64,000 bases of DNA from Babesia bovis T2Bo. Lineage: Eukaryota > Apicomplexa > Aconoidasida > Piroplasmida > Babesiidae. The notes under the pieces were generated by a model. It had not been told where the DNA came from, made no database searches, and saw nothing but the letters and a program-made list of their open reading frames with translations. This document shows, one piece after another, positions 18,694 to 50,979 of this stretch (the first letter of the stretch is position 1; each line of letters starts with the position of its first letter). The DNA lies in NCBI RefSeq assembly GCF_000165395.2, contig NC_010574.1, positions 1,488,001 to 1,552,000 on the forward strand. Direction: 5' to 3'. Both the position numbers and the translations under genes were made by a program.

Positions 18694-20685
18694 ATGAGTA
18701 ACAACATCGTAGTACTAATATCGGTTTACACTATATACAGTATAGCGTCTATATGCTGTCTATCACACAGTTATCAAACTTCTTCGTTGTTGCCAACGTC
18801 AATAAATCCGGGAGATCGCCCTTCAATACCCAGCTTGGGTAGGATTTAATGCTTTATTACACAACATATAGAATATCTTGGCTTGGGTTATGACGCAATC
18901 GAAAGGGCACATAACCTTTTACAATCGAAGACAAATCCTGATGTCTCACATATTGATACAAGTTACAAAGGTCCCATTATAGAGTTGCGCTGGCCATCAG
19001 AAGGAAAACATCCCCTGTACAATAACACCCTGCGGTGGTCACTGCCTACCAATGTATATGGCTGGAGGGCACCTACATGTAAAATACAAGAGAATGTAAG
19101 TTTATAATGAATTGCATACATGGTATTAGGTCTCACGTGAAGACAGTGACGATTCCAGTTCAAAGCAACTGACCGCCGTCTTTGATGCAGCATTGTTTAA
19201 ATTAAAAGCGAAGAGACCAAAGTTTAAGAAAATGTTTAAAAACAAAGCTGATGGTTCACATGAGAAACGTACGGGTGAGATTTTTAAAAGCGATGGCAAC
19301 GATAACCATACAGACGTCAAAAATAAAAGTTCGAAAAAAAACAAGGAGCAAAAGAAGCAGAAAACAAAAACGAAAGTTGATAATGATGTTTTCAACAACA
19401 ATGACACAGTAGACGAAGGAATCAATTCCATCCTTCCTGACAATGAAAGTTACTACGTGAATGAAGATGCATCGGAAGAATCCGACACTTTGGATACGGA
19501 AACAAATGGAGAAGATGATGAGCTGCCTTTCTTCATAGAACTTCCAATTGGTAATTCCAACAAATATATTGGTTTAAACAACGACATTGTGCATGTGTCA
19601 ACAATCGTGGATAAAGATGATAGATCATCATTCCTAGAACATGGAGTACGACATACTGATAACATTGATGATATAATGTCTGCAATAGACGATTCAGTTG
19701 ATTCACTTTCTTTAGATGATCAAAAAACAGAACAATCCGATGAAGACTTACGTGAAGGCAAAAGGAAGCAGGTCTACGACTCACCAACGCATGTTCAACA
19801 TAATGTTGGAAAATATTCATATGATGTATTGAATACACTCGGCGACTCCGCAAAATATCAAGATCAAGGAGAACCCGCTGTTACCAATGAAAATGACGAT
19901 GAGCAAGTTCAATTAAGTGAAGAAGAAAAGACCGAGCTTTCAAAGACTAAAGCCGCTCTTTCATTCAATTTATCAATACAAAACACGCAAGATGTATATT
20001 CTTCTAATATGGAAACGGTAAAGAATGAAACTTGCACATCATTCGTCGCTGGCACTACTCTAGACAAAAACAGGTTTGTATGCAACAAAAGTATTTCATT
20101 TGTGCAGTCACTTCAGTAGAAGCTTTGAAAATGCATTGAAACATCTGTTGAGAGAATTAGACAAGGACATAGAGTGTTCCTTGAAGGATTACGGCACTGC
20201 AGCATGTAAGACGACGCTGACCAGGTGGTTTCACTTTTTCAGAAACTATGGGACACATGTTATAACTCGCATTACCCTAGGTATACAATACAATGTTCAG
20301 CATATAATATATAGGTGGCAAAATTATTATTGAGAAGAAACAACTAGACGAAGGATCCCGTACAAGCCAAAGTGCTTCCGGTGATTTAAAGGCACATATA
20401 GTATCTCCCGACTTTCAACTGAATGCCGGATTGGATAAAAATAACGAATCAAAGTCATCACAAAATGTAACATCAACAACGATGGACATGTTTGGTGGAG
20501 AAATTGGACCTGACTATGAAACACAAGAGTTTAATCCCCTGTGGGCCAAGAGCGTATCATACTCACCAATGCCTATAAGCATGGAGCTCACTCCACTGGC
20601 AAAGTTGTTCGAATCGAGTGGATACCGAGATCATTACTATGAGGCGCTATTACACTACGCTATAAGTGGTGTCAACCACCGTTAG
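18694..20685 (+). CDS. Perforin-like protein with MACPF domain
   Basis: Five exons (18694-18838, 18872-19095, 19130-20073, 20108-20280, 20315-20685) total 1,857 nt, or 618 residues. I chose the ATG at 18694 because it gives a clean signal peptide (MSNNIVVLISVYTIYSIASI). In-frame ATGs at 18628 and 18640 would overlap or abut the E2 stop codon. The MACPF domain begins with EYLGLGYDAI and contains the family signature as WFHFFRNYGTHVITRITLGG near residue 485. The domain closes with PMPISMELTPLAKLF. MACPF proteins form membrane pores used by apicomplexans to cross or leave cells. A roughly 250-residue Lys/Asp/Glu-rich low-complexity insert sits inside the domain (19190-20040). No separate C-terminal beta-rich domain is present. 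Confidence 0.9.
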
Positions 20686-27178: not shown

Positions 27179-30100
27179 CTAAACTCTTTTTCGAAGATAC
27201 TCCACCAGTTCCATTCCTTTGCGTCCCGTCATCACCTTATACCACATACATTGCCACTGGTGTTCTCCACCCCGTAACCAATGAGACCTCATATGTGTCC
27301 AGTCCAGTGGCCATATGGCACCAAAGGCTAGGTAGAGTACCGCCACTAGCCAGGCTATGGTCAGCACAAAGATCCACGGGAGCCGTATGTCGTATTGGAG
27401 TTTGCCGACTTGGGAGAGGAGGTTGCTCAGGGGGTGTTGTTCCTGGTCCTTAGAGGTGGCCTGGTCCTCCTTCTTATTGATCACTTGGTTGAGACTGCTT
27501 AAGAAGTCATGACACCGCTTAGTAGTCTTCGTGTTCTCTATGCTATAATCCCCCTCTCTGCTTCCATCATTCTGATAATACCCCTCCAGATTGAATGGGT
27601 TACCGTAGCTAAAGCCATGTCTGTACAGTACTGGCAGTACCCCGGTACATGATACGATTGATTGGCATCCACACTGTCCACTACCCTGTCCATGTACTCC
27701 CTTCTTGCACTTATTGGGGTCACACTGTCCCTTACAGCCTCGGCATTCAATATTACGGAATGCCTCAGACAGTGACTCTAGTCCTGAATGAAGTGCATCT
27801 GATAGGTACAGTACCCATGAGAGGTATGTTCCGCCGAAGGTGGCACTCACTGCGGTGTACAGCTCACCGGTTAGGGGGGAGAGGTATTCTGAGTCCTTGG
27901 TCAGTGCAGAGAGGGCATTGGTAGTGGACTGTGACGCTGGCTGTGGAGCAGTACTAGCGTCCTTCTCGCCCTTAATGTCTCTTAGCGCTTTACCGACAGT
28001 CTTCATGTACTGTCCTCCTTTAACACTGCTATCTCCATTGTATATCCACTCAATTTTTTGTACTTCATCACGTAACCCAGAGGCACACCACCCGCAGAAA
28101 TACTTCTCCTTGTTCGCCTCATAAGATCCACTTGGATCTCCTGTGTGATCACAATTCGTCTCCAATTCTCCCTTTGGTGGCTTTCCCTTGTCCTTGTTTC
28201 CCACCCCTCCCCTAAAGAACCCAAAGACGTCACCCAATACCTGTGGTGTAGTGGCACTGAGTGCTGCTGTAACTCTCACTAGTGTATAAACGCAAGACTG
28301 CATCATGTTCTCGTTGCTGAAGAAGTAGAGGATGCCATAAAGGCGTTGGCCAGTCATGTCACTGGTGCTGCCCTTGTGGAATTGCCCTCTAAAACCCATT
28401 GGCAATGGACAGCACTGACCTGAGCCATTGCAGTGTCCTAGGTGGGATGCAGCGGGTGGGTACTTGTCGGCGTCCTCAGTGTACAGGATCTCTTGACAAC
28501 TAAACCCTGGCAACCTGTCTTCCAGGAATGCCTGGAGTGGAGAGGGGAACCCGTCCATGTATTGTTGGTGGCACTTGTCACAGTACTTGGACTGTGGCTG
28601 TCGGCCACACTTGTTGGAGTGTGATTTACAGGATGGGCACTTGGGTGAGTTGCATATGTCTTTGATCTGATCTATGGTTTTATGAAGTGTGTTTGCGACC
28701 CATTCCGATAATGTGCCTTTTAGATGTGTTGAATCACTAACTCCCAGTTCTTTCTGTATTTCCCCCAATATTTCTCTTACCTTATCGATAGCAGCACTTA
28801 TCTTGTTCTTACCCTGATCGAAATCATTATTACCATTTGTAGCTTCCCCCAGTTTATCCACTACCTCCCCTAGTATTCCATTATTACCACCACCCTTCGT
28901 CGTCAGCTCCTCTAGTTTCTTCTTAGCCTCCTCTAGTTCCTTCCCATTCAGCCCATTCTTCACCGCCTTATCTAGTTCCGTCTTAGCCGTCCCTAGTGCC
29001 ACCTTCACCCCCTCTATAGCCTCCTTTTCCTTCCCTTCCAATGCCTCCTGGGCATTACCCAATTGTACCACTACCTGACCTATAGCCTCCAGTACATCCT
29101 TGATCTTCTTTGCATCACTGCCATTCGATCCTAATGGTAGTTTGTTGAGTTTGTTCCCCATCTCCCCCACCCTCTTTTTCCTATCATGTTCCATGGGGTC
29201 ACACCCCAGGCACATCCAGCTAATTACCCCCTTAGAGACTACCCCATTACCATACCTACACTCACGCCATTTACCTCCTAGGGCCACTTTAACTGCACAC
29301 TGCTTCCTAAGGAAGTACAACTGGTAGAACAGAGCCCTAATGTAGTGTACCACTTGGTTGTATGCTTGGATGGACACAGTGGGATAGGTGAAGTGGCATT
29401 CAGTGTTGGCATACAGGGAGTGAATGGCAGGTTCTTCAGTGCCTTTAGTACAATGTATTCCACCCTGGATACCTATGAGCACCGGGGGGCAGTACTGGGT
29501 CACTGCTTGGAAGTGGGCAAACAGGTTGTATTCATGAACTGTAATGGGAGCTGAACGTTTTTCTTGGTAGAACTTTAATTCTTTTTGTTCGTTGCCAGAG
29601 GTAGCACTAGAGGCAGTGTCTCCGGGCTTCTTGAGTACCTCTTTTAGTCTTCCCTTGGCATGCTTAAGTATCTCTGGGTATGCCAGACTATAGGGCAATG
29701 CACTTAGCCAGTATAGGATTTCACGGATGGTCTTGGGAGTTTTATTTTTTGCTTTCGGCGGATTCTTTTTCTGTAACCCGGTAAAGTAGGCACATGATAG
29801 AATGTAGAGCTTGTACAAGGCACCACATTTGTGCATCTGTTCGTCAGTTATGCTAGCGTCATTGCCATTCTTATGGAAGATAGTAGCGTTGCTGCAAAAT
29901 GCACCCCTGTCTACGGTATGTATATATCCAGCATAGTTCATACCAGCTGGTTGTCTGAATGTATTATCATTATAGTCCCCGCCATGGACAGGACTACCAT
30001 TACCAGTATCCGGAAATCCCAAATATAACATACCCCTAAACCCATCCCATATAATAGCATCCAACCTATTTCCGGGACCACTATTATTAAGCATTTCCCT

Positions 30101-31309
30101 AGGAAATCCTAGGGCCTGAAGCCATTGGGACAGGGTACCATCATCTAGACCTCTGCCATCCAGGATGTGGTTGTTCCACCGAGGACTGCTGGAATGGTAC
30201 TTTCCAGTCCAATACATATAAGTAAGGCCACTCCAGATGAGACATACTGAACCTAGTAATATCTGAGCACCAATTGCTCGCTTTTTACTAGTTTTTCTAT
30301 CAGACCAAGTTGGCCATACTAGGTATTCATTACCAACAATTCCGTGATATACTAGCTCTACTTGGTATGAAGATCTATAGCTGTCTTTGTGTTCAAAAAT
30401 TCCAAGGGTATTCTTGTGCGTTTCCATACAGCTACACTTATCACTACACTTCCCACACTTATCCTTACAACAACACTTGCAGCATTTGCCTGCTTTAGCG
30501 CATTTACACTCTGTACTAAGACCTCCCTTGCAATCACCACTACACTGACACCTATGCTGTACACCACCACTATCACTATCACTACACCTTGTACACTTCC
30601 TTCCCAGTGGTGTTCCTTCGCTTTCCGGATTCTTCACTTCCCATTTCATACATTCACACTCTTTGCATGGAGTGTTTGGTGTTGCATCCTTGAGATACCC
30701 GCAATCCGTTTTTATGCCGTGTTGATTGTTATTGTTACTACCTTTGCAGTCCCAACACTTCTCTATCCTACTCCACCCAACCAGTGCACTGAGTACCTGT
30801 GCCAGCTGGTCTATATAGGTCCGGACCACTGCGGTACCACCTAGTCCCTGTACCAGAGAGAATAGCTCATTGAGGCACTCTGTGACTCTCTTTTTTGGGG
30901 GGCCCTTGCTGTTGTCAGCGCCATCACTTTCTCCTTGATAGCCTATAGGGACCCATGAGGTACTGTATACCAGTAGTGGTACTAGATAGCACTACTCCAC
31001 TACTGGGTACTTACCATGGTACTCCAGTTCTACTGACTGCAGTAGGTCAGTCACTGCCGCCGCCAGGCCACATATACATTCTGTACAATAATGACTTCCA
31101 TAGTACGGAGCGCGCCAGTGTAATGGGCACTGTCAGGTAACATCCATGTGGCGCGCATAACACAGTAATGTCTTCAGTAACTTACCATCCTTGTTCAGTT
31201 CTTTACCATCCCTACCAGTAACCCTCAGGACCCAGTCAATGGCCTCCTTCAGGTTGGTGGGAGCGTCGGTTAGTGACGCCTTCGGCGTGAAAGCGCTTGC
31301 AGGGGCCAT
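27179..31309 (-). CDS. ves1alpha: VESA1 alpha-type subunit (ves1-alpha), complete
   Basis: Three exons (31309-31186, 31080-31015, 30942-27179; introns 105 and 72 nt, both phase 1) total 3,954 nt, or 1,317 residues with no internal stop. VESA1 is the variant heterodimeric adhesin exported to the infected red-cell surface in B. bovis. It mediates endothelial adhesion and antigenic variation. Visible in order are: a conserved opening (APTNLKEAIDWVLRVTGRDG); a Cys/Lys-rich domain at about residues 120-225, full of CKCxKxGKCCKCCC-like spacing; the ARIL/LGSVCLIWSGLTYMYW block; a Lys/Glu coiled coil near residues 675-790; several Cys-rich blocks; one transmembrane helix (LPWIFVLTIAWLVAVLYLAF); and a short cytoplasmic tail. 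There is no signal peptide, as usual for VESA1. The alpha assignment rests on the Cys/Lys-rich domain and the few introns. Confidence 0.88.
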
Positions 31310-31604
31310 TGTCAGTGCCTTTAGGAGTACTCAACAGTACTCACAGTGGTGTGGTAGTGGTCTGGCTATCGGGGTGGAATCCTATATATAGTGAGCGCGC
31401 CCGTATATTGGTGGCGCGCATACTATTCTATGGGATTCCAACAGGTATTACCACGGTGGAGATGATCCCGTTGGTATAGTGGAATCCCCTAGGACACTGT
31501 CGCGCCGAAGGCGCCCCTATCTCCCTAGGATTCCACCCCGATACATTGACCTTGACTACCACTGACCTTCACTGGACACTCTCGAAACTAGGGGTGGTGA
31601 CACA
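31310..31604. promoter_or_regulatory. Bidirectional ves promoter spacer, quasi-palindromic
   Basis: This 295-bp spacer separates the two divergent start codons. It contains a perfect 16-bp inverted repeat (31368-31383 with 31527-31542), a nested 9-bp pair (31432-31440 with 31480-31488) and an inverted copy of the ves GC hairpin (31502-31514). The adjacent first exons extend the symmetry. About 64 bp of coding sequence at 31200-31263 matches the reverse complement of 31651-31714 at over 90%. In B. bovis the locus of active ves transcription has this divergent alpha/beta layout around a quasi-palindromic spacer. Promoter function here is inferred from position. Confidence 0.72.
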
Positions 31605-34600
31605 ATGGCAGCACAGAGTACCTGGAAGCCTCATGAAAGCCTCACCCAGGCTCCCACCAACCTGAAGGAGGCCATTGACTGGGTCCTGAGGGTAACTGGT
31701 AGGGATGGTAAAGAGAACAAGGCAGCGCCGGCGCAGGCGCCGGCAAGCAGTAGTAATGGCCCCCGTAAGTCAATAGTACTCACAGTAGCTCCCACACGAC
31801 CATACAGACTGTCTGTGCTTCTTGGCCAAGGCAGTGAAGGACCTACTGTATGACGCCAAGGACCCGGGGTCCCCTGGTCCCAGCTCTGAGAGGTACTGGG
31901 ATGGCATACTCCTAGAGCAGGAGAGTGACATTGTCAATCCAGTGCTCACGGACCTGGGACTCCTTAATGGTGGCAGCACTGATAGCACTACTGCTAGTAC
32001 TACCTGCGCCGGTGGTACCGAGGTCATAAAGGCACTGATATATCAGTTGGCACAGGGACTACAGAAGTGGGTTGGGTGGCAGGAAGGGGATACTTGTTGT
32101 TTGGGACAGACTAAAGGGGGTAAAAGTGACGGAATTGGTAAAGGATGTGAACGTACTGGTTCCGGCGTTGGTGGTAAATGTTGCACAAATGATGATAAGA
32201 ATAGTCATGAATGTTACCAATGCGGTAAAGTTACTGCTCCTAAAAAATGCTACCTTTCGGCCTATTGCAAAAAGAGTTCTTCTAGTGGTGCCAGCCAGTC
32301 AGATGGTGACTACTACTGGTCCGCCATATCCAGTGACTCCACTAAGGTCCACCTCCTGGCCCGTATTTTCCTAGGGTCAGTATGCCTCATCTGGAGTGGA
32401 CTCAGTCAGTTGGGGTTCCTAACGGGTGGGAGTGGCAATGATAGGTGGAGCAAGGAAGGAAAGCTACATGAGGAGACTAATGGTCTCGGCTCATTCATGG
32501 CGGCGATGGGCTACGACCTGGAGAGGTTGAATGGGAGTGGCGGAGGTAAGTATTGCCTAGGGTAGTCATGTGGACTTATGGTGGAGTAGGTGATAAGACG
32601 GGGCAGTTTGTGCAAAAGTTACTATCGGGAACGGATCCAAGTGGAAAGGATGGTATCCAATGGAAGGAATTCCAGGGAGACAGTGCTACTAAGGGTAAGT
32701 CCACCTCCTCTATAGTACCAATGTTCCCTAGGTAGTGTAGCTGAGTACTATAGTGAAATCTATGAGAAGGCCAAGGAGGCTGCCAAGAGTACTACTGAAT
32801 CCATCTGTAAGGACTACCCCCTATTGGTACTCCACATCCTGGCCAGTGGGTACTTCAGGGCAGGTAGTGCCGGGGCTAATAAAGTACCTGTGGCGCCTTC
32901 GGCGCCATCTAGTGATCCTAGGAAACCTAGGACAATCCGGGAGATCCTATACTGGCTCAGTGCATTGCCCTATAGTCAGGGATACAAGGCACTGGTGGAG
33001 AGGATGCAACAAAAGTATCCTAGGAAAGAGGGCAAACCACAGGAAACAGCGACGGAAATAGTGCTTCACGGTGAGCAGAATGGCAATACCACCCTCAAGA
33101 GGGACTGTATTACCCACTACCTAATGGCCGCCTGTGGCTACTGCCCACTGGTCCTCATCAGTATCCAGGGGACCATAGCTACCAGTGGCATTGAAAGTGC
33201 TCCTGCTACAGGTGAGTGATATAGACAGGGATCTATAGGGGCGCCTTCGGCGCAACAGTGCCCTAGGGGTAGTTATATGGACTAATGGTGTAGTAGGTGC
33301 CGGAGGAGTTGCTGCTGGTACTGCGGAGAATAAGTGCACCAATTATGGCAAGAAGAAAGAAGAAAAGACAGATTGCAACAAAGATAATGAACTCACCAAG
33401 CAAGGAAAGGTATGCTACAGGGGGTACCACCTGGCAGTAAAGGATTTTGGTAAGTACCCTAGCAGCACTAGTCACTAACACTATGTGTAGGCCCCCTCCA
33501 CGGGATGTACGCCAATGGGCTCTTTGGCTTCCAGATGGACCTTTCGGCCGCCCAGTGCCTGGACCAACTGAGGGTATATGTCTACCACTGCTTCTACCAG
33601 CTCTACTTCCTTAGGAAGCAATGTGGAGCGGGGGTGACAGTGGACAAGAAGGCAGTGCTGGGCTGGCAGAGTTGTAGGTATGGTTATCAGGTATCCACTA
33701 GGAAGGGAGGCAACACCGGTGGAGCCGATACCAAGAACTGGATGTGTAAGCCATTGAGTAGGTCATAGTGTAGAAACAGTGGTATATAAGGGCGCCTTCG
33801 GCGCAATAGTGCCTCTGGGAGGAGCGCAGGAGCAGTGTATATAGGGTAGTCATGTGGACTAATGGTGTAGTAGGTAGTAGTGCTGGTAACAGCAACGGTA
33901 ACAACCAAGGTGGTAGTCCTAATCAGAATAATGGACAAAGTAACAAGTGCAACTGTCTGGGAGAGGGAGCTACCCAGGGCAAAGCGGGCACTCCCGGTGA
34001 TGGCTCACCCCTACAGAGCTTCTTGTGTGATAGTATCAATGGGATGCACTGTGGAATAACAACGGGATCCGGTGTGGATAGGTATCCTCCAATAGAGGAT
34101 CATATGAATTGTCCAGCGGGAACTGTTGGCCACTTTGGCGGTCCTCCAAAACACTGTCCAGTACCTATGGGATGGAGCGCGGAGAGTACTAGTGGCAGTG
34201 GTTCTAACAAGGAAAACCACTTCAAAGGTACGTCCCAGTACTCTATATGGTACCCCTAAAGCACTGTATATATACACTAGGGGCACCCTCTGGGCGCCAC
34301 AGTAACCAATAGTGACTCATGGTATGCACAGATTTAACCCAGGGTACCCATAAGACAGACAAACTGGCACAGTCACCACCAGGTACGTCCCACAGTATAT
34401 TACATGGACTCATCATGTAGCAGGCACTAACACTACCTATCCCGCCCACTGCACTGGGAATACACTGTCACTACTACTGGAATACTACTGTGACCCCGGA
34501 AAGTGCCACGGCACCCTAGTGGTACTCCTGAGACTCCTGGCATGTATTACTCCCACGGTGCCACGGACCCTGGGTGACCTCTTTGGGTTCTATTACTATA

Positions 34601-35740
34601 TAGTCTACATTGGGGGAAAGAGTGGTGGTAGTGGTAAAAAGGAGGTGTATACGAAGCTAGGAGAGCTAGAAAAAGAGGTGCTGCTCCATATGCGTCAAGG
34701 TAATGAAGTGGTCCAGGCACTAACCACGTGGTCTACCGGTGGAGATTGCAGTAAAGGCAATGAAAAGAACCTTAAGTGCCTAACAGAGTGCACTACTGGT
34801 ACTGGCGCCAAATACCTCTCTCCTCTGAGTGGCCAGCAGTATGGCCAGTTGAGTCCCCTGATGGCCGGGACCTACCTGTCATGGTTGGTCTATTTGATAG
34901 AGGGGTTCCAGGAAGGGTTGCAAGGACTGGTGCAGGAGTATAAAAATATAGTATGCAAAGATAGTTGCAGTTTGGGTAAGTTCTAGTGCTACATAAGGGC
35001 GCCTTCGGCGCGACAGTGTCCGTTACAGTGGCGCGCAACAGTGTCAAATGGATTAATGGTGTAGTAGGTGTTCCAGGAGGAGCTGCTGGTGGATGTAATG
35101 GAGATACGTGTAGAGCAGGAAGTCACGGTGACACGTGTAAAAGTGGTGGCAATCAGGGAGTCTGTGGCTGCTCCTCTGTCGTATCATGTACCGGGGTATT
35201 ACCGGTATTGTACAAGTATGGATTTGGGTATGGTGATGTCAGTAAGTTGCACCCTGGGACAGGTAAGATGTAGTATAGTAGTATGGATAGTGTAGAGAGA
35301 GTGTAGTACCAGTTTTGGTAAAAGTTTCACAAAAGTTTAGTAATAGTTTTGGTGAATGTTTAGTATAAAAGTAGTAGTTGTTAGGGGTATTAAATGGTGA
35401 TTTAGGTGTTGGTGATAGCAACAAGAAGTGTCACGACTTCCTGGGAACACTAGAAAAGGTCCTACGCGGTGACCAATTGGACAGCACCAAAAAAGGCCTC
35501 CACCATGAAATAAACCAGCTCATCTACACCACCAGGCTCCCCTGGATCTTTGTGCTGACCTTGGCCTGGCTAGTGGCAGTACTCTACCTTGCCTTTGGTG
35601 CCATATGGCCACTGGACTGGACACATATGAGGTCGCATTGTAGGGGATGGTTCGGGAAGGGCAGTCTGAGTCCATGGGAGGTACTGATGGTGGGTAAGAA
35701 GAAGGGAAGGGGGATATTGGAGTTTTTTGGTAAGACATAG
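31605..35740 (+). CDS. ves1beta: VESA1 beta-type subunit (ves1-beta), complete, ten exons
   Basis: The exons are 31605-31764, 31808-32545, 32590-32694, 32732-33211, 33297-33449, 33491-33757, 33874-34227, 34424-34975, 35068-35262 and 35406-35740. They sum to 3,339 nt, or 1,112 residues, with an unbroken frame. All nine introns are phase 1 and each internal exon length is divisible by three. Landmarks are: the shared opening APTNLKEAIDWVLRVTGRDG; HLLARIFLGSVCLIWSGLSQ; LLVLHILASGYFRAGSAGA; KPRTIREILYWLSALPYS; CFYQLYFLRKQCGAG; a YLSPLSGQQYGQLSPLMAG block; and the C-terminal helix LPWIFVLTLAWLVAVLYLAF with a basic tail. It lacks the Cys/Lys-rich domain of the alpha type. Several introns end in a conserved ATGTGGACTAATGGTGTAG motif. 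It is the plus-strand partner of the divergent pair. Confidence 0.87.
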
Positions 35741-36779
35741 TGGCAAAGTAGTGGCGCCTTCGGCGCGATAACTAGGGATAATGTAGATATGTTCATCAAA
35801 AGTTACATGGAAGTTTAGTATAAAAGTAGTAGCTGTTAGGGATGGTGATGTGGATAGGGTTACAGAGTGTTTTCTTAGAGTTACGTAGCACTGTTAGTAA
35901 AGGTTTCGTAGTGATTTTATTAAAATTTTCATCGTATATTCAGTAAAGGTTAAGTACTGGTTTTGGTAGAGGTTTCATAAAAGTTTGGTTGCACTTTTGC
36001 CGAAAGTTCTATAAGGGCGCCTTCGGCGCAACTGTGCCCTAGGGGTAGTGATAGTGCTAGGGAGAATGTAGCCAGACGTTTGGTAAAGGTTTCATAGAAG
36101 TTTAGTATAAAAGTAGTAGCTGTTAGGGATGGTGATGTGGATAGGGTTACACAGTGTTTTCATACAGTTAGACCGTAGTGATACCTATAGTGTATTGTAG
36201 TGGTCTTCTAAGTAAAAATTTGGTAGCACTTTTGCTGAAAGTTCTATAAGGGCGCCTTCGGCGCAACAGTGCCTTAGGGGTGGTCATGTGGAGTAATGGT
36301 GTAGTAGGTCCGACGGAGAATTACTCTAGAAATGTTAGTAAAGGTGTCGTAATGTATTAATAGCCGCTATGGTAAAACTCCAGTAGCATTGTTAGTAAAC
36401 ATTTCGTAGTGATTTTATTAAAATTTTCATCGTATATTCAGTAAAAGTTTAGTAGTGGTTTTGATAAAAGTTTCACAAAAGTTTAGTAATAGTTTTGGTG
36501 AATATTTGGTATAACTTTGGCAAATGTTTCACAGAAAAGTAGTAGCACTTTTGGTGAATGTTTGGTATAACTTTGGTAAAAGTTTCATAGAACGTTAGTG
36601 GCACTTTTGGTAAAAGTTTAGTATAACTTTGGCAAATGTTTCACAAAAGTTTAGTAATTGTTTTGGTGAATGTTTGGTATAAAAGTAGTAGCTGTTGGGG
36701 GTGGTATATGGATGAGATTACAGAGTGTATTGATTGGATTTTCGTAGCAATGTTGGTAAAGGACTCATAGAGTTTTGGT
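35741..36779. repeat. AT-rich repeat field derived from ves intron sequence
   Basis: Over 1 kb is built from degenerate copies of units such as TTTTGGTAAAAGTTTCACAA and GTATAAAAGTAGTAGCTGTT, with two GC hairpins. The same units make up the last intron of the beta-type gene (35263-35405) and the stretches before 42505, 46010 and 46565. An orphan intron end (GTGGAGTAATGGTGTAGTAG, near 36290-36309) is followed by a short unrelated tail. The field therefore looks like decayed, duplicated ves introns. No ORF is supported in it. Confidence 0.75.
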
Positions 36780-37058
36780 GCAGTGATCAACGGAGATAGT
36801 ACCAGTCCCCTCACCAATCTCCTCTCCCAGGTCGGCCAACTCCAATACGACATACGGCTCCCTTGGATCTTTGTACTGACCATGGCGTGGCTAGTAGCAG
36901 TACTCTACCTAGCCTTTGGTGCCATATGGCCACTGGACTGGACACATATGAGGTCGCATTGGTTACGTGGTGGAGAACACCAGTGGCAGTGTATGTGGTA
37001 TAAGGTGATGACGGGGAGGAAGGGAATGGAACTGGTGGAGTATTTTGGTAGAAAATAG
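36780..37058 (+). pseudogene. Orphan 3' end of an alpha-type ves gene
   Basis: This 279-bp open segment encodes only the last 90 or so residues of an alpha-type VESA1: PLTNLLSQVGQLQYDIRLP, the transmembrane helix PWIFVLTMAWLVAVLYLAF, and the tail LRGGEHQWQCMWYKVMTGRK. It matches the ends of the genes at 27179 and 50979. It starts abruptly after the AT-rich repeats with no start codon or upstream exon, and it is immediately followed by a GC hairpin. It is a fragment, either a relic or a short conversion donor. Confidence 0.85.
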
Positions 37059-41653: not shown

Positions 41654-42504
41654 TATGGTTAATCACAAATATTGTAATATCTTCGCGAAAACAAAGTCAT
41701 CATAATGTCATACTCTATAGACATCCGTGACAGCCTATATTTATACATTTTTAATAGTTTATACGATTATCTGCTACACTATATTAACACATATCCTTTA
41801 TTACTCCACACCACTTTAACATATGCTAACCTCACCAAGACCATCACCCAGTAGATCCATAGACCCTCTGTACTGCTGCATTGATAGCACTGATCATTAG
41901 CACACATAGACTCCTCTGTTATGGCCCAGTATGCTACAGCACAATAACCACGGTATCCATAGTATCCCATTGAAGTGACTTCGTTATAGAGTACTGTACA
42001 ACAGTGATATTCAGTGTTAGTACTACAATATGCTTCCCCTAGAGTATACATCACACTCTCCACTAGTACATATCACTACCTCTATCAGGATATCCACAGT
42101 GGTCACTACAAGAGTCCAGGAAGTGATTTACTAAATACTTGATTATTGTACAAAGCAATGTTATGAGGATAACTTACTGCCTATCAAGTGCCATCACTAC
42201 TTTTCAAGCCACTAGGTTATGCCCCATCATTGGTGGGTTGCCCTAGCATCCTAAAAACCCCACCAGGGTAACTCCAACATAAATAGGGCCCCCACTAAAC
42301 AGTCCTTTGTGAGGGGACATTGTCTATAGTAATGTTCAGAATAAAGGCAGTGTTGGTGACAGTTTAGTAGTAACAATGGTGGATGTTTGTTAGGAATTTT
42401 ATGGAAGATCAGTAGCAAAGTTAGTGAAAGTTTTATAGAAGTTCAGCAGCACTTTTGCTGAATGTTTAGTATAAAACTAGTTGTTGTTCGGGGTAGTGAA
42501 GAAA
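41654..42504. other. Spacer upstream of the truncated beta-type gene
   Basis: This is 0.85 kb with no supported gene. It holds the left arm of a long inverted repeat (42240-42331) and, from about 42400, AT-rich ves-intron units (GAATGTTTAGTATAAAACTA) that run up to the broken start of the beta-type copy. Confidence 0.5.
42240..42331. repeat. Inverted repeat, left arm, flanking the beta-type pseudogene
   Basis: The reverse complement of this segment aligns with 46793-46880 at roughly 80-85% by eye. Both contain the blocks ATGTCCCCTCACAAAGG, GTTAGTGGGGG (or TTTAGTGGGGG) and CCCTGGTGGGGTTTTTAG in the same order. The two arms enclose the whole truncated beta-type gene. Confidence 0.8.
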
Positions 42505-45500
42505 GGTTACCGAGGTCATAAAGGCACTGATAGACCAGTTGGCCCAAGGACTGCAGAAGTGGGTTGGGTGGCAGGAAAAAGGAGATGAGTGTTGTCTTAA
42601 GGGAGATAGTGGTGGACAAAGTACGGGTATAGGAAAAGGATGCATACACGGTGCTGCTGGCAGCAACGGAAAGTGTTGTAACAAAGATGGCGATCGTCGT
42701 ACTCCATGTGCTAATGATGAGTGTCAGCATTGTGGTATTAGTCCCAGCTATAACAAGTGTGGCATCAGTGTCAATGATATCAATAACAAATGCTACCTCT
42801 CGTCTTACAAAAGACACAATGGTGACCCCAATAGTGTACCCAGTGGAGACTACTACTGGCCCACCATATCCAGTGACTCCACTAAGGTCCACCTCCTGGC
42901 CCGTATTTTCCTAGGGTCAGTATGTCTCATCTGGAGTGGACTCAGTCAGTTGGGGTTCCTAACGGGTGGGAGTGGCAATGATAGGTGGAGCAAGGAAGGA
43001 AAGCTACATGAGGAGACTAAGGGTCTCGGCTCATTCATGGCGGCCATGGGCTACGACCTGGATAGGTTGAATCAGGGAGCTCCAGGTGAGTACTGCCCAG
43101 GGTGGTCATGTGGACTTATGGTGTGGTAGATAAAGGAGGAGAGTTTGTGCAAACATTGTTGACGAATACTGTGGGATGGAAGGATCTCAGTAATGGCACC
43201 AATTCAAGTAAGTCCACCTCCTCTGTAGTACCAATGTTCCCTAGAGAGTGTAGCTGAGTACTACAGTAGTATCTATGAAAAAGCCAAGGAGGCTGCCAAG
43301 AGTACTACTGAATCCATTTGTAAGGAGTACCCCCTATTGGTACTCCACATCCTGGCCAGTGGGTACTTCAGGGCAGGCAGTGCCGGGGCCAAGGGTATCA
43401 CGCCGCCGGCGAAGCCGGCCACTAGTACTGACGGTGCTAGTGATGCCAAAAAGGACACTACCTCTCCCAGGAAGCCTAGGACCATCCGGGAAATCCTCTA
43501 CTGGTTAAGTGCATTGCCCTATAGTCAGGGGTACAGAGACCTGGTAGAGAGGATGGGAGATAAGACGGATCAGGTTACCCAGGGGAACTCTGAGGATAAA
43601 AAGGGCCAGATAGAGCTGTACGATACCAGTGCTGCTAAGGCTAGTACCTCCCTCAAGAGGAATGACATTACTCACTACCTAATGGCCGCCTGTGGCTACT
43701 GCCCACTGGTACTCATCGGTATCCAGGGGACCATAGAGAAGGAGGTGGACAAGGCACAGCCGGCACAAGCACAAGGTGAGTCACATAGACAGAGCTCTAT
43801 AGGGGCGCAACAGTGCCCTAGGGGTAGTCATGTGGACTTATGGTGTGGTAGGTAGTGCTCCAGCTGCTCCTGTTGCGGAAAAGAAGTGTCCCAAGCATAA
43901 GGAAGATCGTAATCACAGATGCGATCCTAAAAATATAAAGGAACCAGCAGCCCAAGCAGCGGGATCTTCCGCTGCACCAGCTCCCGGCGGACAACAACTC
44001 AAGGAAGGTGAGGTCTGCTACGGCGGGTACCACCTGGAAGCAAAGGATTTTGGTAAGTACCCTGGCAGTACTAGTCAGTGACACCATGTGTAGGCCCCCT
44101 CCATGGGATGTACGCCAATGGGCTCTTTGGCTTCCAGATGGACGGCTCTCCCGCCCAGTGCCTGGACCAACTGAGGGTATATGTCTACCACTGCTTCTAC
44201 CAGCTCTATTTCCTGAGGAAGCAGTGTAAGGTGGGAGTGGAGAGTGGAGCTGTGCTGGGATGGAAAAGTTGTAGGTATGGTAGTGGACTTGATGGCGCCG
44301 GGAAAGAGAACTGGATTTGTCAAAAATCAAGTAAGTATTGCAGACATTGTTCTATAGTATTCACCATATGGTTTTCATCTGAAATAATGATGTAGCAGGT
44401 ACCAGTAATGGGAAGTGTAATTGTCATAGTAGCACTAAATCGCCACTCATGTTATTCCTTTGTGATTCAGTTGAACATATGCATTGTGGATTGACAAAGG
44501 GCAAGGGTGTGAATGATTATCCCGAAATTGATGACCACATTGAAGCCAAGGATACTATTCAACCTCCACACTTTGGCAAACCACCCAAACACTGCCCAGT
44601 ACCTATGGGTTGGCAATCAGAGAGTACTGGTAGTAGCACTAGCGGTGGTCAAATCAGAGAAAACCACTTCAAAGGTACGTCCCAGTACTCTATATGGCAC
44701 CCCTAAGGCACTGTATATATACACTAGGGGCACCCCCTGGGCGCCACAGTGACCAATAGTGACTCATGGTATGCACAGATTTGACCAAGGGTACCCATAA
44801 GCAGTCACCACTAGATCCTCCGTTAGGTACGTCCCACCCTAGTTCTATAAGGGCGCCTTGGTAGTCACATGGACTCATCGTGTAGCAGGCAAGTACCCTG
44901 TACACTGCACTGGGAATACACTATCTTATCTCCTGGAGTACTACTGTGACCCAGACAAGTGCTCTAGTGGCACCCTAGTGGTACTACTGAGACTACTGGC
45001 ATGTATTACTCCCACAGTGCCACGGACTCTGGGTGACCTCTTTGGGTTCTATTACTATATAGTCTACATTGGGGGAAACCAGGGTGGTGGTGGTGGTAAA
45101 AAGGAGGTGTATACGAAGCTAGGAGATTTAGAAAAAGAGGTGCTGCTCCATATGGGTAAAGATAATAAAGTGGTCGAGGCACTAACCACATGGAGTGGTA
45201 AGTATACATACAGGGAGTAGTGGCCGTCTAGTACTATAAGGGCGCGCCGTATAGAGATAGCACCTGACAGTGTCCGTTAGGGTGGCGCGCACTGGTAGTG
45301 TATAGGGTAGTGACGTAGTGTAATGGAGTAGTACCACTAACAGTGGCTCATGGTGGTGTAGGTGGTGGAAGTGGATGTACTAGTGGTTGTAAGGACACAC
45401 TAAGGTGTCTATATGGCGATAAAGGCACTGGTCAATGCTCTCACTATTTATCTCCTCTGAGTGGTCAGCAGTATGGCCAGTTGAGTCCCTTGATGGCGGG

Positions 45501-46353
45501 GACCTACCTGTCATGGTTGGTCTATTTGATAGAGGGGTTCCATGATGGACTAGAGGGATTGGCAAAGGATTATAGGAATATAGTGTGCAAAGATGAAGGG
45601 TGTGGTACGAGTAAGTTCTAGTGCTATATAAGGGCGCCTTCGGCGCAACTGTGTCATATGGATTCATGGTGTAGTAGGTGTGGGAGGAGGTGCTGGTGGA
45701 TGTAGTGGAGATACATGTAAAGCAGGAAGTCACGGTACTACGTGCAGTGGTGGTGGTAATACCGGAGTCTGTCAGTGTCCCTCTGTGGTATCTTGTACCG
45801 GGGTACTACCGGGGTACTACCGGTGTTGTACAAGTATGGCTTTGGGTATGGTAACGTAGAGACGTTGCACAACGGTAAAGGTAAGTTGTGATACAGTAGT
45901 ATGGATAGTGTAGAGAGAGTGTAGTAGTATAGTTGGTAAAAGTTTCACAAAAGTTTAGTGTAAAAGTAGTAGCTGTTAGGGGTAGTAATATGGAGTAACT
46001 CTGTAGTAGGTGCTGGTAGTACACAGAAGAAGCAGTGTCACCATTTCCTGGAGACCCTGACAAAGGTCCTAACAGGGGATCACCTCAAGACAGGTGGCAC
46101 CAGTGGAGGCCTCCACCACGAAATAAATAAGCTCATCTACACCACCAGGCTGCCCTGGATCTTTGTACTGACCCTAGCGTGGCTAGTAGCAGTGCTCTAC
46201 CTAGCCTTTGGTGCCATATGGCCACTGGACTGGACACATATGAGGTCGCATTGCAGAGGATGGTTTAGGAAGGGTAGTCTGAGTCCATGGGAAGTACTGA
46301 TGGTGGGAAAGAAGAAGGGGAGGGGGATACTAGAGTTTTTTGGTAAGACATAG
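42505..46353 (+). pseudogene. Beta-type ves gene, 5'-truncated and frameshifted
   Basis: Homology to the complete beta-type gene begins abruptly at TEVIKAL within exon 2, so exon 1 with the ATG and about 70 codons of exon 2 are missing. The exons are about 42505-43085, 43130-43207, 43245-43775, 43852-44052, 44094-44330, 44399-44674, 44889-45197, 45362-45610, 45678-45880 and 46010-46353. It has one intron more than the complete copy (45198-45361). All introns are phase 1. Exon 45678-45880 is 203 nt: 192 plus an 11-nt tandem duplication (45800-45810 repeated at 45811-45821) that shifts the frame and leads to a stop before the transmembrane exon. It cannot make a full VESA1 but could donate segments. 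Confidence 0.88.
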
Positions 46354-46880: not shown

Positions 46881-46993
46881 GGGGTGGTGAGGTAGTGCAG
46901 AAACACTGATATAGAATGCACGTCATATTGATGCTCCCTGTCAGTGCCCGTTACAGTGGCGCGCCCAGTACTATTGTACTCACCCCTCTACAG

Positions 46994-49900
46994 AATGTAT
47001 ATGTGGCCTGGCGGCAGCAGTGACTGACCTACTGCAGTCAGTACAACTGGAGTACAATGGTAAGTACTCAGTACTATACTACTTCAGCATCATTGTAGGC
47101 TATCGTGGTGAGAAGAATGCAGAAACAACTGGTGGAAATAACGTTGAAAATCGCCTCAATGAACTGTTCTCCCTGGTCCAGGGACTAGGTGGTACTGCAG
47201 TGGTCCGGACCTATATAGACCAGTTGGCACAGGTACTCAGTGCACTAGTTGGGTGGAGCAGTATACCGAATTGTGGTGGTGGCGATGGCACGTGCAAGGG
47301 GACTGAAGGCAATGACAAACCGCATGGCCAAGAGAGCTGCAAGTATCTAGATGATGTAAAACATGAGAATAAGTGTGGCACATGTGGGTGTATGAAATGG
47401 GACGCGACCGAGGCGGACGGAGAGGAGAAAGGACACCACCTAGGAAGGAAGTGTACAAGGTGTAGTGAAGAGGCGAAGAAGAAGTGTGATTGTGAAAGTG
47501 GCTGTACAGGTCCTGACAAGTGCAAATGCTCAAAAGCAGGGAAATGCTGCAAGTGTTGTTGTACCAGTTGTCCTGGGAAGTGTAATGAAAAGGGGTGTAG
47601 TTGTGTAAAGGAGGAGGAGAAGCAAAATGGCACAAATGACCTTGAACGTCGTATATACAAGGATACGTATCAGTCGGCATATGGAGAAATGTCGTTTCTA
47701 TCGATATATGATGGTTCATATTTCCGTATGAGATCCACATGGACAGATCTACTGGAGATGGGTGGAAGTATGACTCCCTCCCAACGCCGCCACCAATGTG
47801 CCCGCATCCTCCTAGGGTCAGTATGTCTCATCTGGAGTGGCATTACTTATATGTATTGGACTGGAAAGTACCATAAAACTAGCCCCCGGTGGAACAATCA
47901 CATTTTGGATGGTAGTGGTCTAGATGATGGTACCCTATCACAATGGCTTCAGGCCCTAGGGTTTCCTAAGGTAATGCTGAATGACAAGGGACCGGAGAAT
48001 AGATTAGATAAGGTCATATGGAATGGACTTAGTGATAAGTTGCTTCTAGGGTTTGCAGTGCCTAGTGGCCTTAATACTAGTGGTGTTGCCAATGACACTA
48101 ATGGCAATACAGCAAGGAATCCATTCGCTATGAACTATGCCGGTTTTGTACATACAGCACATAGGGATTCGTTCAATGAACAAGCTATTGTGTTTAAAAA
48201 TGACGGCTCTAGTACTACTGACACTAACATCCACAAAAGAGGCTCCCTCTTCAAGCTCTACATTCTATCATGTGCCTATTTCACAGGGTTACAGAAAAAG
48301 AGTAGTACCCAAAGCACTGCCCCTAGGAATCCCAAGACCATCCGGGAGATCCTATACTGGCTAAGTGCATTGCCCTATAGTACGGCATATAAGGAGATGC
48401 TGAAGCACGGCAAGAATAGGCTAAGAGAAGTGACCAAAAAACCCGGAGACAATGGCAATGAGACACCAACACTCGCCTTTCACCAAACAGGCCGTAATCA
48501 TCCCATTACCGTTGATGAGTTCAACCTGTTTGCCCACTTCCAAGCTGTGACTCAGTATTGCCCACTGGTCCTCATAGGTATCCAGGGTGGAATACATAGC
48601 ACTAAGGGCACTGACAAAACACTAGAACCCGCCATTCACTCCCTATACGCTAACACTGAATGCCCCTTCACCTACCCATCAGTTGATATACAAGCATACA
48701 ACCAGGTGGTCCACTACATTAGGGCTCTGTTCTACCAACTCTACTTCCTTAGGAAGCAATGTGCAGTCAAGGTCACTTACGGAGGGAAATGGCGTGAGTG
48801 TAGGTATGGGGATGGAGTAGAGTCAAAGGGGGTTATTAGCTGGATGTGCCTGGGGTGTGACCCCATGGAACATGATAGGAAGAGTAGGGTAAAGGAGTTG
48901 AAGAAGACATTGGATGGGATGAAGAAGGTAAAAAAGGAGGACGAGGAAGAGGATGATGCTAAAGATCTTGCAAATGGGTTGAAAACACTATTGGAAAAGA
49001 TTGGCGAGGTGGTGGTACAATTGGGTAATGCCCAGGAGGCATTGGAAGGGAAAGCTGAGAAGACAGTGATAGACGGGGTGAAGAAGGCAATAGGAGAGGC
49101 TAAGAAGGGACTGGATACGGCTAGGACGGGACTGGAGGGTGAGGTGGGGACAAGATTATATGGAATACTAGAGGTCACGGTAGATGAGGGGGTGGAGAAT
49201 GGAATACAAGAAAAACTACAGGAGGTAGATAAGGCACTAGAGAAGCTGACGAATGGTGGTAGTGGTAGTGGTGATCTACTAGGGGAGGTAGAGAATAAAC
49301 TAGAGGATGCTAACAGTGGTGATTTCGATCAGGGTAAGAACAGGATAAGTGCTGCTATCAATAAGATACGGGAGGTATTAACAGCATTTGAGAAGGGACT
49401 TGAAGAAGCAGGCAAAAAACAAGAGGCAAAGGAAAAACTCGGTAACCACCAAGAGGCACTGTTGGATGCTACAAGAAAGCTCAAAGACATCTGCAACACT
49501 CCCAAGTGCCACCAATGTGACCAACACTCCACTAAGTGTGGCCAAACACCAACACCCAGTGTCTGTAAGACCTGTCACCAACCCACTACCACTGGTGTCC
49601 CCTCCCCCCTCCAGGCATTCCTCGAGGACAGGTTACCAGGTTTTAGTTGTGAGGTAGTACGAGGCACAGACAGTGACACAGACACAGTGTATCCACCTGC
49701 TGCATCCCACCTAGGACACTGTAATGGCTCTGGCCAATGCTGCCCACTGCCCATGGGATTTAGAAATCAATTCTATAGTGGCAGCATCAGTGATTGTACC
49801 GGCCACCGTCTTTATGGCATCCTATACTTCTTCAGCAACGGGGACATGATGCAATCATGTGTCTATACACTGGTGAGGGTAACTGCGGCACTCAGTGCCA

Positions 49901-50979
49901 CTACACCACAGGTACTGGGTGATGTATTCGGGTTCTTTAGGGGTGGTATTGGAGAGAAGGAAAGGGGAAAGAACAAGAAGGATTCAGTAGTGCCGTGTGA
50001 TCACACAGGAGATCCAAGTGATACGTCAGATAAGAACAAGGATAAGTACTTTTGCGGCTGGTGTGCCTCTGGGTTAAGGGAGGAGGTAAAAGGTATCCAG
50101 TGGATATACAATGGGCCGGGGGACGGAGGGGAGTACAGGAAAACAGTCGGTAAAGCACTAATAGAGATTAAGGGCGAGAAGGGTAGTAGTGGTGGTAAAC
50201 AGCCAGCATCACAGCCCAATACTACTGCCCTCTCAAGACTCACTAAGAACTGCCAGTACCTCTCCCCCCTAACCGGTGAACTCTATACAGCAGTGAGTGC
50301 CACCTTCGGCGGAACATACCTCTCATGGGTACTATACCTATCAGATGCACTTGAAGGTGGATTACGGTCTCTTGCGAGTGAATTCAAGCAGATTGAATGC
50401 CGTGGCTGTAGAGACTGTGACCCCAATAAGTGCAGGAAGGGAGAACACGGACAGAAGGGTGATAAAGGGAGGACCGGGTTATGCACGTGTGACTCAATCG
50501 TATCATGTACTGGGGTACTGCCAGTACTCTATAGACATGGCTTCAGCTACGGTAACCCATTCAATCTGGAGGGGTATGAACAGAATGATGGAAGCAGAGA
50601 GGGGGATTATAGTATAGAGAAGGCAGAGAGTACTAAGCGATGTCACGAGTTCTTGGACAGTCTCAGTGCAGTGATCAATGCAAAGAAGGAATCCGATCAG
50701 AAGGACCAGGACACTAAAGAACACCCCCTCACCAACCTCCTCTCCCAAGTCGGCCAACTCCAATACGACATACGGCTCCCCTGGATATTTGTTCTCACAG
50801 TAGCGTGGCTAGTAGCGGTACTATACTTAGCCTTTGGTGCCATATGGCCACTGGACTGGACACATATGAGGTCGCATTGGTTACGGGGTGGAGAACACCA
50901 GTGGCAATGTATGTGGTATAAGGTGATGACGGGACGCAAAGGAATGGAATTGGTGGAGTATTTTGGAAAGAGAGTTTAG
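46994..50979 (+). pseudogene. Alpha-type ves gene lacking exon 1, otherwise open
   Basis: The first recognisable exon (46994-47059, 66 nt, starting after ACAG) matches exon 2 of the complete alpha gene. A 39-nt phase-1 intron (47060-47098) leads to an open exon 47099-50979. No APTNLKEAIDWVLRV exon with a start codon is found in the 640 bp upstream. The large exon has all alpha landmarks: the Cys/Lys-rich domain, LGSVCLIWSGITYMYW, TIREILYWLSALPYS, a long Lys/Glu coiled coil, QVLGDVFGFFRGG, and the terminal helix PWIFVLTVAWLVAVLYLAF. About 1,294 codons are intact. The intron has no in-frame stop, so readthrough also stays open. It is probably a silent donor. A distant or non-homologous first exon is the alternative. 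Confidence 0.82.

Follow-up and report, generated by a model that had tools for sequence, protein, structure and literature searches.

Whether a divergent pair of intact ves genes is the site from which Babesia bovis expresses its variant antigen, or one of many equivalent copies, is a question raised by a locus on chromosome 2 of strain T2Bo. We addressed it in a stretch of 64,000 nucleotides (C2:1488001-1552000, here called the window; C2 is chromosome 2 according to its BBOV_II locus tags). All coordinates are positions in this window, with the features collected in Table 1, and the genome searched comprised 8.23 Mb in 8 contigs. The original prediction described the pair as a candidate active expression site, or locus of active ves transcription (LAT). 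Our results indicate with high confidence that it is an ordinary, transcription-competent ves1alpha/ves1beta head-to-head pair, one of 33 with the same kind of spacer, and as such a textbook example of the unit by which B. bovis varies its cytoadhesion antigen.

The two genes begin with ATG codons at 31309 (alpha) and 31605 (beta) and end with stop codons at 27179 and 35738-35740, respectively. Exon 3 of the alpha gene is an open frame of 1270 codons in which Pfam detected VESA1_N (PF12785; E 9e-209). Of the four intron penalties applied in the gene finder, one gave three alpha exons, two gave two exons with exon 2 skipped, and the loosest gave four. The deposited T2Bo alpha protein P0003, whose 1330 aa equal the length of the three-exon model, includes exon 2 and therefore supports the three-exon structure, which with VESA1_N in a long exon 3 is that of a ves1alpha gene. 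For the beta gene, three of these penalties gave ten exons and the loosest gave eleven. The beta model was 96% identical over its entire length to the deposited B. bovis beta subunit P0083 (1123 aa, strain unstated); the first and last residues agree, and the splice junctions differ. VESA1_N scored 40 bits in beta, on the stretch holding exon 2, and the many small exons and the beta-type protein identify the gene as ves1beta. A loose gene finder setting was discarded after it produced dozens of spurious exons in both genes, and stiffer intron penalties were used instead. Frames, models and deposited proteins thus confirmed the predicted anatomy, with intact alpha (three exons) and beta (ten exons) genes diverging from a 295-bp spacer. 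As had been claimed, no other ves gene in the window is full-length: exon-1 peptide matches were found here only, and the copies at 42476-46350, 46933-50979 and 36711-37055 lack exon 1.

The genome was scanned with an exon-1 motif at up to three mismatches, with the reversed motif as control. The scan returned 75 matches versus 0 for the control, which excludes chance. Of these, 66 form 33 minus/plus pairs, each less than 700 bp across, and nine are unpaired. It has been reported that 66 ves1 genes are divergently oriented (PMC4066756) and that about 33 ves pairs flank quasi-palindromic bidirectional promoters (PMC7485966). The window pair is a member of this described class, as the original prediction of a LAT-like divergent alpha/beta pair correctly stated, and is itself already known and annotated. 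When all 33 spacers were aligned, the other 32 were 58-95% identical to the window spacer, and lengths ranged from 200 to 497 bp. Whole pairs were compared for 20 of the 33, those on C1 and C2, which are not a random sample; the other 13 were compared by their spacers only. Both gene models reached the conserved membrane tail in 17 of the 20 fetched pairs, an upper estimate of intact pairs because the gene finder can bridge defects and is rough at 3' ends, where, at the penalty applied to the other loci, the beta models of L010, L011, L013, L018 and L020 overrun a conserved tail downstream. Among the 17, L020 has a short beta (743 aa), so that two long models are present in 16 pairs. An independent search found alpha exon 3 frames of more than 1200 codons open at many loci. 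Judged by N-termini alone, the exon-1 types suggest an alpha/alpha pair at L031 and a beta/beta pair at L039, though an alpha body adjoins L039.

In the window, alpha and beta diverge around a spacer of the family type, the arrangement of a putative LAT. A review describes ves spacers at the family level as bidirectional promoters (PMC6630957), and by homology the window spacer would function likewise. Once the locus is chosen, the spacer could in principle drive transcription of both VESA1 heterodimer subunits; in all other cases the pair, like the 5'-truncated copies next to it, would serve as a silent sequence stock for segmental gene conversion, in which the mean tract is about 109 bp in wild type (PMC7485966). 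We compared the window pair with the 19 other fetched pairs; totals are lower bounds, as the comparison covered neither the remaining 13 pairs nor unpaired ves genes lying beyond the fetched stretches. Nine exact tracts of at least 100 bp were shared with four partner pairs. Six of the nine fall in beta and are all shared with L016, and five of these form the block 32554-33605, whose flanking 100-bp steps are 82% and 72% identical to L016. Such short near-identical tracts with divergent flanks are the expected trace of segmental gene conversion, and their direction (recipient or donor) cannot be read from them. The idea that the pair is unusually fresh in exact tracts was rejected, as it ranked 12th of 20 by bases in exact tracts of at least 60 bp. 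Elsewhere, L009 and L010 (C1:672 kb and 796 kb) share exact tracts of up to 1443 bp and have spacers of equal length, which looks like a recent duplication from the sequence, and L017 and L028 have an exact tract of 2945 bp in common.

Locus tags were assigned to the window by position. Between II004190 and II007810, the ves tags in PMC7701181 are II006780, II006790, II006820 and II006830, and their order is that of alpha, beta, truncated beta and truncated alpha in the window. The smorf table of the same paper gives only II006800 and II006810 between II004220 and II007780, and a smorf-domain search of C2 from 1.0 to 1.7 Mb found two genes only, both within the window. The first of these genes carries KFSVEWYLLPKP, with one conservative change from the peptide, which is what PMC3459096 states for II006800. 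The MACPF exons at 20106-20658 fit II006750, a MACPF gene upregulated in kinetes (PMC9806345). Gene order, the two smorf genes and the MACPF gene together argue strongly that the window pair is BBOV_II006780/II006790. This tie to published locus tags shows that an active-site call made from sequence alone is testable against existing RNA data.

We then read the expression of the assigned genes from the RNA table of PMC7701181, which contains 129 ves rows and derives from a Texas strain stabilate (calf infection, blood stages cultured for five days) that is not stated to be clonal. In normalised units, the blood-stage signal was 54.0 for alpha II006780 (rank 50 of 129) and 29.0 for beta II006790 (rank 66), together 0.3% of the summed blood-stage ves signal. 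The dominant couple, III003090 (4983) and III003100 (4179), accounted for 35%, and by the order of identifiers it appears to fit the divergent pair at C3:705.8-706.3 kb (spacer L030). These results suggest that the window locus was not the main expression site in the Texas-strain blood sample. Signals of adjacent ves tags, evaluated for 63 couples of tags at most 10 apart irrespective of their divergence, were correlated in blood (log r 0.51, a value reached in 0 of 5000 shuffles) and more weakly in kinetes (log r 0.37, reached in 7 of 5000), which is what joint firing of pairs would produce.

Several points weigh against reading the locus as an ordinary pair outside the main expression site. 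The locus tags are assigned by position and not from the record, read counts may be wrong where tracts are shared, and, in a possibly non-clonal stabilate, a minority of parasites could use the window pair. Moreover, clones of a Texas-strain line had their active locus on chromosome 2 (clones C2 and C3) or on chromosomes 2 and 3 (clone C1) (PMC12064010). The active site on chromosome 2 is described there as sub-telomeric; the main-text passages of that paper name no ves gene tag, and the site may or may not be the window locus. The window pair lies about 210 kb from the right end of C2, and other C2 pairs are much nearer an end, at 21 kb and 94 kb. We consider it very improbable that the sequenced strain uses this pair as its active or usual expression site. 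Its intact frames, its spacer with the family features and its chromosome, on which that study placed the LAT of several clones, would all fit such a role, but intactness is general among the fetched pairs, the share of summed blood-stage ves signal is 0.3%, against 35% for III003090/III003100, and the location is farther from an end than those of other C2 pairs. The claim of a candidate active site gained no specific support: intact frames are common among the fetched pairs, the spacer is ordinary and the exact-tract rank is middling. A pair that is silent while another is active in the same clone, the outcome named in advance as refuting the claim, was approached in spirit: the assigned genes rank far below the dominant couple, which points against an active LAT (the dominant ves source in a clone), with the caveat that the clonality of the sample is unstated. 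Marginally less probable still is a relic no longer capable of expression, retained as donor sequence only. Both neighbouring ves copies have indeed lost exon 1 and the spacer; in the pair itself, exon 1, the spacer and the open frames are preserved, and RNA of the assigned genes was measurable.

A reading that we hold to be doubtful, although better placed than the two above, is a split by life stage in which beta and the first downstream smorf form a tick-stage (kinete) unit and alpha does not. In the tables of PMC7701181, kinete signal rose 5.6-fold for beta II006790 (29 to 164, rank 13 of 129) and 38-fold for the smorf gene II006800 (16 to 607), whereas it fell 6-fold for alpha II006780 (54 to 8.8); an increase of 2-fold or more in kinetes is seen in 16 of the 129 ves rows, beta included. 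Against this, the second smorf gene II006810 goes the opposite way from the adjacent II006800, being 41-fold down (208 to 5), and adjacent ves tags overall are still correlated in kinetes. The absolute counts are small and come from one strain with tags set by position, and blood and tick pools may differ in clonal make-up, which could yield the same numbers. If true, the split would challenge the rule that the two genes of a ves pair are expressed together, and it would endow the tick stage with a ves/smorf programme.

The ordinary ves pair that we favour also carries a GC hairpin motif, GCGCCTTCGGCGC, of which the window holds 11 copies, all inside the ves cluster. The 14-base form GGCGCCTTCGGCGC occurs in 242 copies genome-wide versus 0 for the reversed control. 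Among the matches listed (the first 100 of 242, all on C1), 85 have a ves mark at most 5 kb away and 99 have one at most 10 kb away, and 5-kb zones around ves marks cover 22% of that C1 stretch. The 13-base core was present in 27 of the 33 spacers. Gene bodies and 3' flanks of 40 gene models (20 loci) contained 90 sense and 0 antisense copies, and 24 of the 40 models had a copy at most 13 bp past the predicted stop; the window alpha had no copy within 300 bp past its stop. At the same loci, a hairpin was present in 44 of the 182 introns predicted for beta and in 7 of the 47 predicted for alpha. These results offer an easily tested mark of the whole ves family.

Arm complementarity was kept in 13 of 17 variants at one mismatch and in 45 of 48 at two, in a scan that covered both strands (one site may count twice) and scored G-T as paired. 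Sixteen two-mismatch variants were one single form, which in the window is located in alpha exon 1. Variants with three mismatches showed no excess (156 versus 120 for the reversed control, of which 111 were the motif on the opposite strand), and the analysis was restricted to variants with at most two mismatches. When three hairpin-bearing introns and the beta 3' flank were folded as RNA, z-scores ranged from -0.45 to -1.63, with no unusual overall stability, and the best fold of one of these four stretches, 33212-33309, lacked the small hairpin. A preference of conversion breakpoints for hairpin-bearing introns was unconvincing: in 16 genes of each type (L020, L021, L023 and L027 left out), 19 of 71 beta breakpoints were intronic at an intron share of 18% (about 13 expected), and 0 of 34 alpha breakpoints at an intron share of 4%. 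At L042 (C1:915900-923300), ten hairpin copies follow in series downstream of the pair, spaced 320-1023 bp (705 exactly three times); most of them sit behind ves 3' end-like sequence, and the series resembles orphan 3'-end pieces arrayed in tandem. The hairpin number is probably due in part to copying of ves 3' ends, and the motif may act as DNA, act as RNA or be only inherited. Titles and abstract openings among the literature matches listed contained no report of the motif, which promoter or chromatin papers may describe. More speculative than the stage split, by a small step, is a model in which one 295-bp bidirectional promoter would serve two stages unequally. Beta and the first smorf would be kinete genes with alpha shut, VESA1b would lack an alpha partner in the tick, and the sense-oriented hairpin would become a candidate family-wide regulatory or recombination mark.

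Table 1. Features of the ves locus and its surroundings (window positions)
Feature	Position	Strand	Basis or remark
MACPF (perforin-like) exons, map anchor, fits BBOV_II006750	20106..20658	+	about 6.5 kb from alpha 3' end
ves1alpha gene, intact, assigned BBOV_II006780	27179..31309	-	frame, Pfam, deposited protein; tag by position
Alpha exons 1, 2 and 3	31309-31186, 31080-31015, about 30981-27179	-	exon 2/3 junction differs in deposited protein
74-nt inverted repeat from the two exon 1 sequences	31200..31714	.	95% complementary; arms 31200-31273 and 31641-31714
Tract of 188 bp identical to L015	31203..31390	.	alpha exon 1 and spacer; exact tract
Shared alpha/beta spacer, 295 bp	31310..31604	.	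other 32 spacers 58-95% identical
18-bp perfect inverted repeat in spacer	31367..31543	.	arms 31367-31384 and 31526-31543
GC hairpin motif GCGCCTTCGGCGC within spacer	31502..31514	-	
ves1beta gene, intact, ten exons, assigned BBOV_II006790	31605..35740	+	gene models, Pfam, deposited protein; tag by position
Beta mosaic block versus beta of L016 (C1)	32554..33605	+	100-bp steps 98-100% identical, one step 92%
GC hairpin motif GCGCCTTCGGCGC within beta exon	32893..32905	+	
GC hairpin motif GCGCCTTCGGCGC in beta intron	33241..33253	+	more intron copies from 33792 and 34999
Tract of 724 bp identical to L022	35645..36368	+	end of last beta exon and 3' flank; exact tract
GC hairpin motif GCGCCTTCGGCGC past beta	35754..35766	+	13 nt past beta stop codon
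Downstream GC hairpin copies (starts)	36017, 36252, 37061, 45634, 46367		
Orphan ves last-exon piece	36711..37055		92% identical to window alpha tail over 83 residues
smorf gene, 142 aa, carries KFSVEWYLLPKP, assigned BBOV_II006800	39585..40013	+	smorf-domain search
smorf gene, 241 aa, assigned BBOV_II006810	40928..41653	+	smorf-domain search
5'-truncated ves1beta copy without exon 1 and spacer, assigned BBOV_II006820	42476..46350	+	tag by order
ves1alpha copy without exon 1 and spacer, 1354-codon frame, assigned BBOV_II006830	46933..50979	+	tag by order

Finally, we compared the ordinary pair described here with known systems. It resembles the divergent ves pairs of B. bovis (putative LATs) in its head-to-head alpha and beta genes, its inverted-repeat spacer, the smorf genes alongside and its mosaic relation to other ves genes; no structural difference was found, and it stands apart in the low published blood-stage RNA of its assigned genes. 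The L030 pair, which appears to fit III003090/III003100, shares the exon-1 motifs and has a spacer homologous to the one here (85% identity), but this spacer is 407 bp long versus 295 bp here, and the blood-stage signal of III003090/III003100 exceeds that of the assigned genes about 90- to 140-fold. In the var family of Plasmodium falciparum, each promoter serves one gene. The var sites are similar in that a variant erythrocyte antigen is expressed in a mutually exclusive manner, from one promoter among many (in part after PMC4413850), whereas the ves unit consists of two diverging genes and varies by short-tract conversion.

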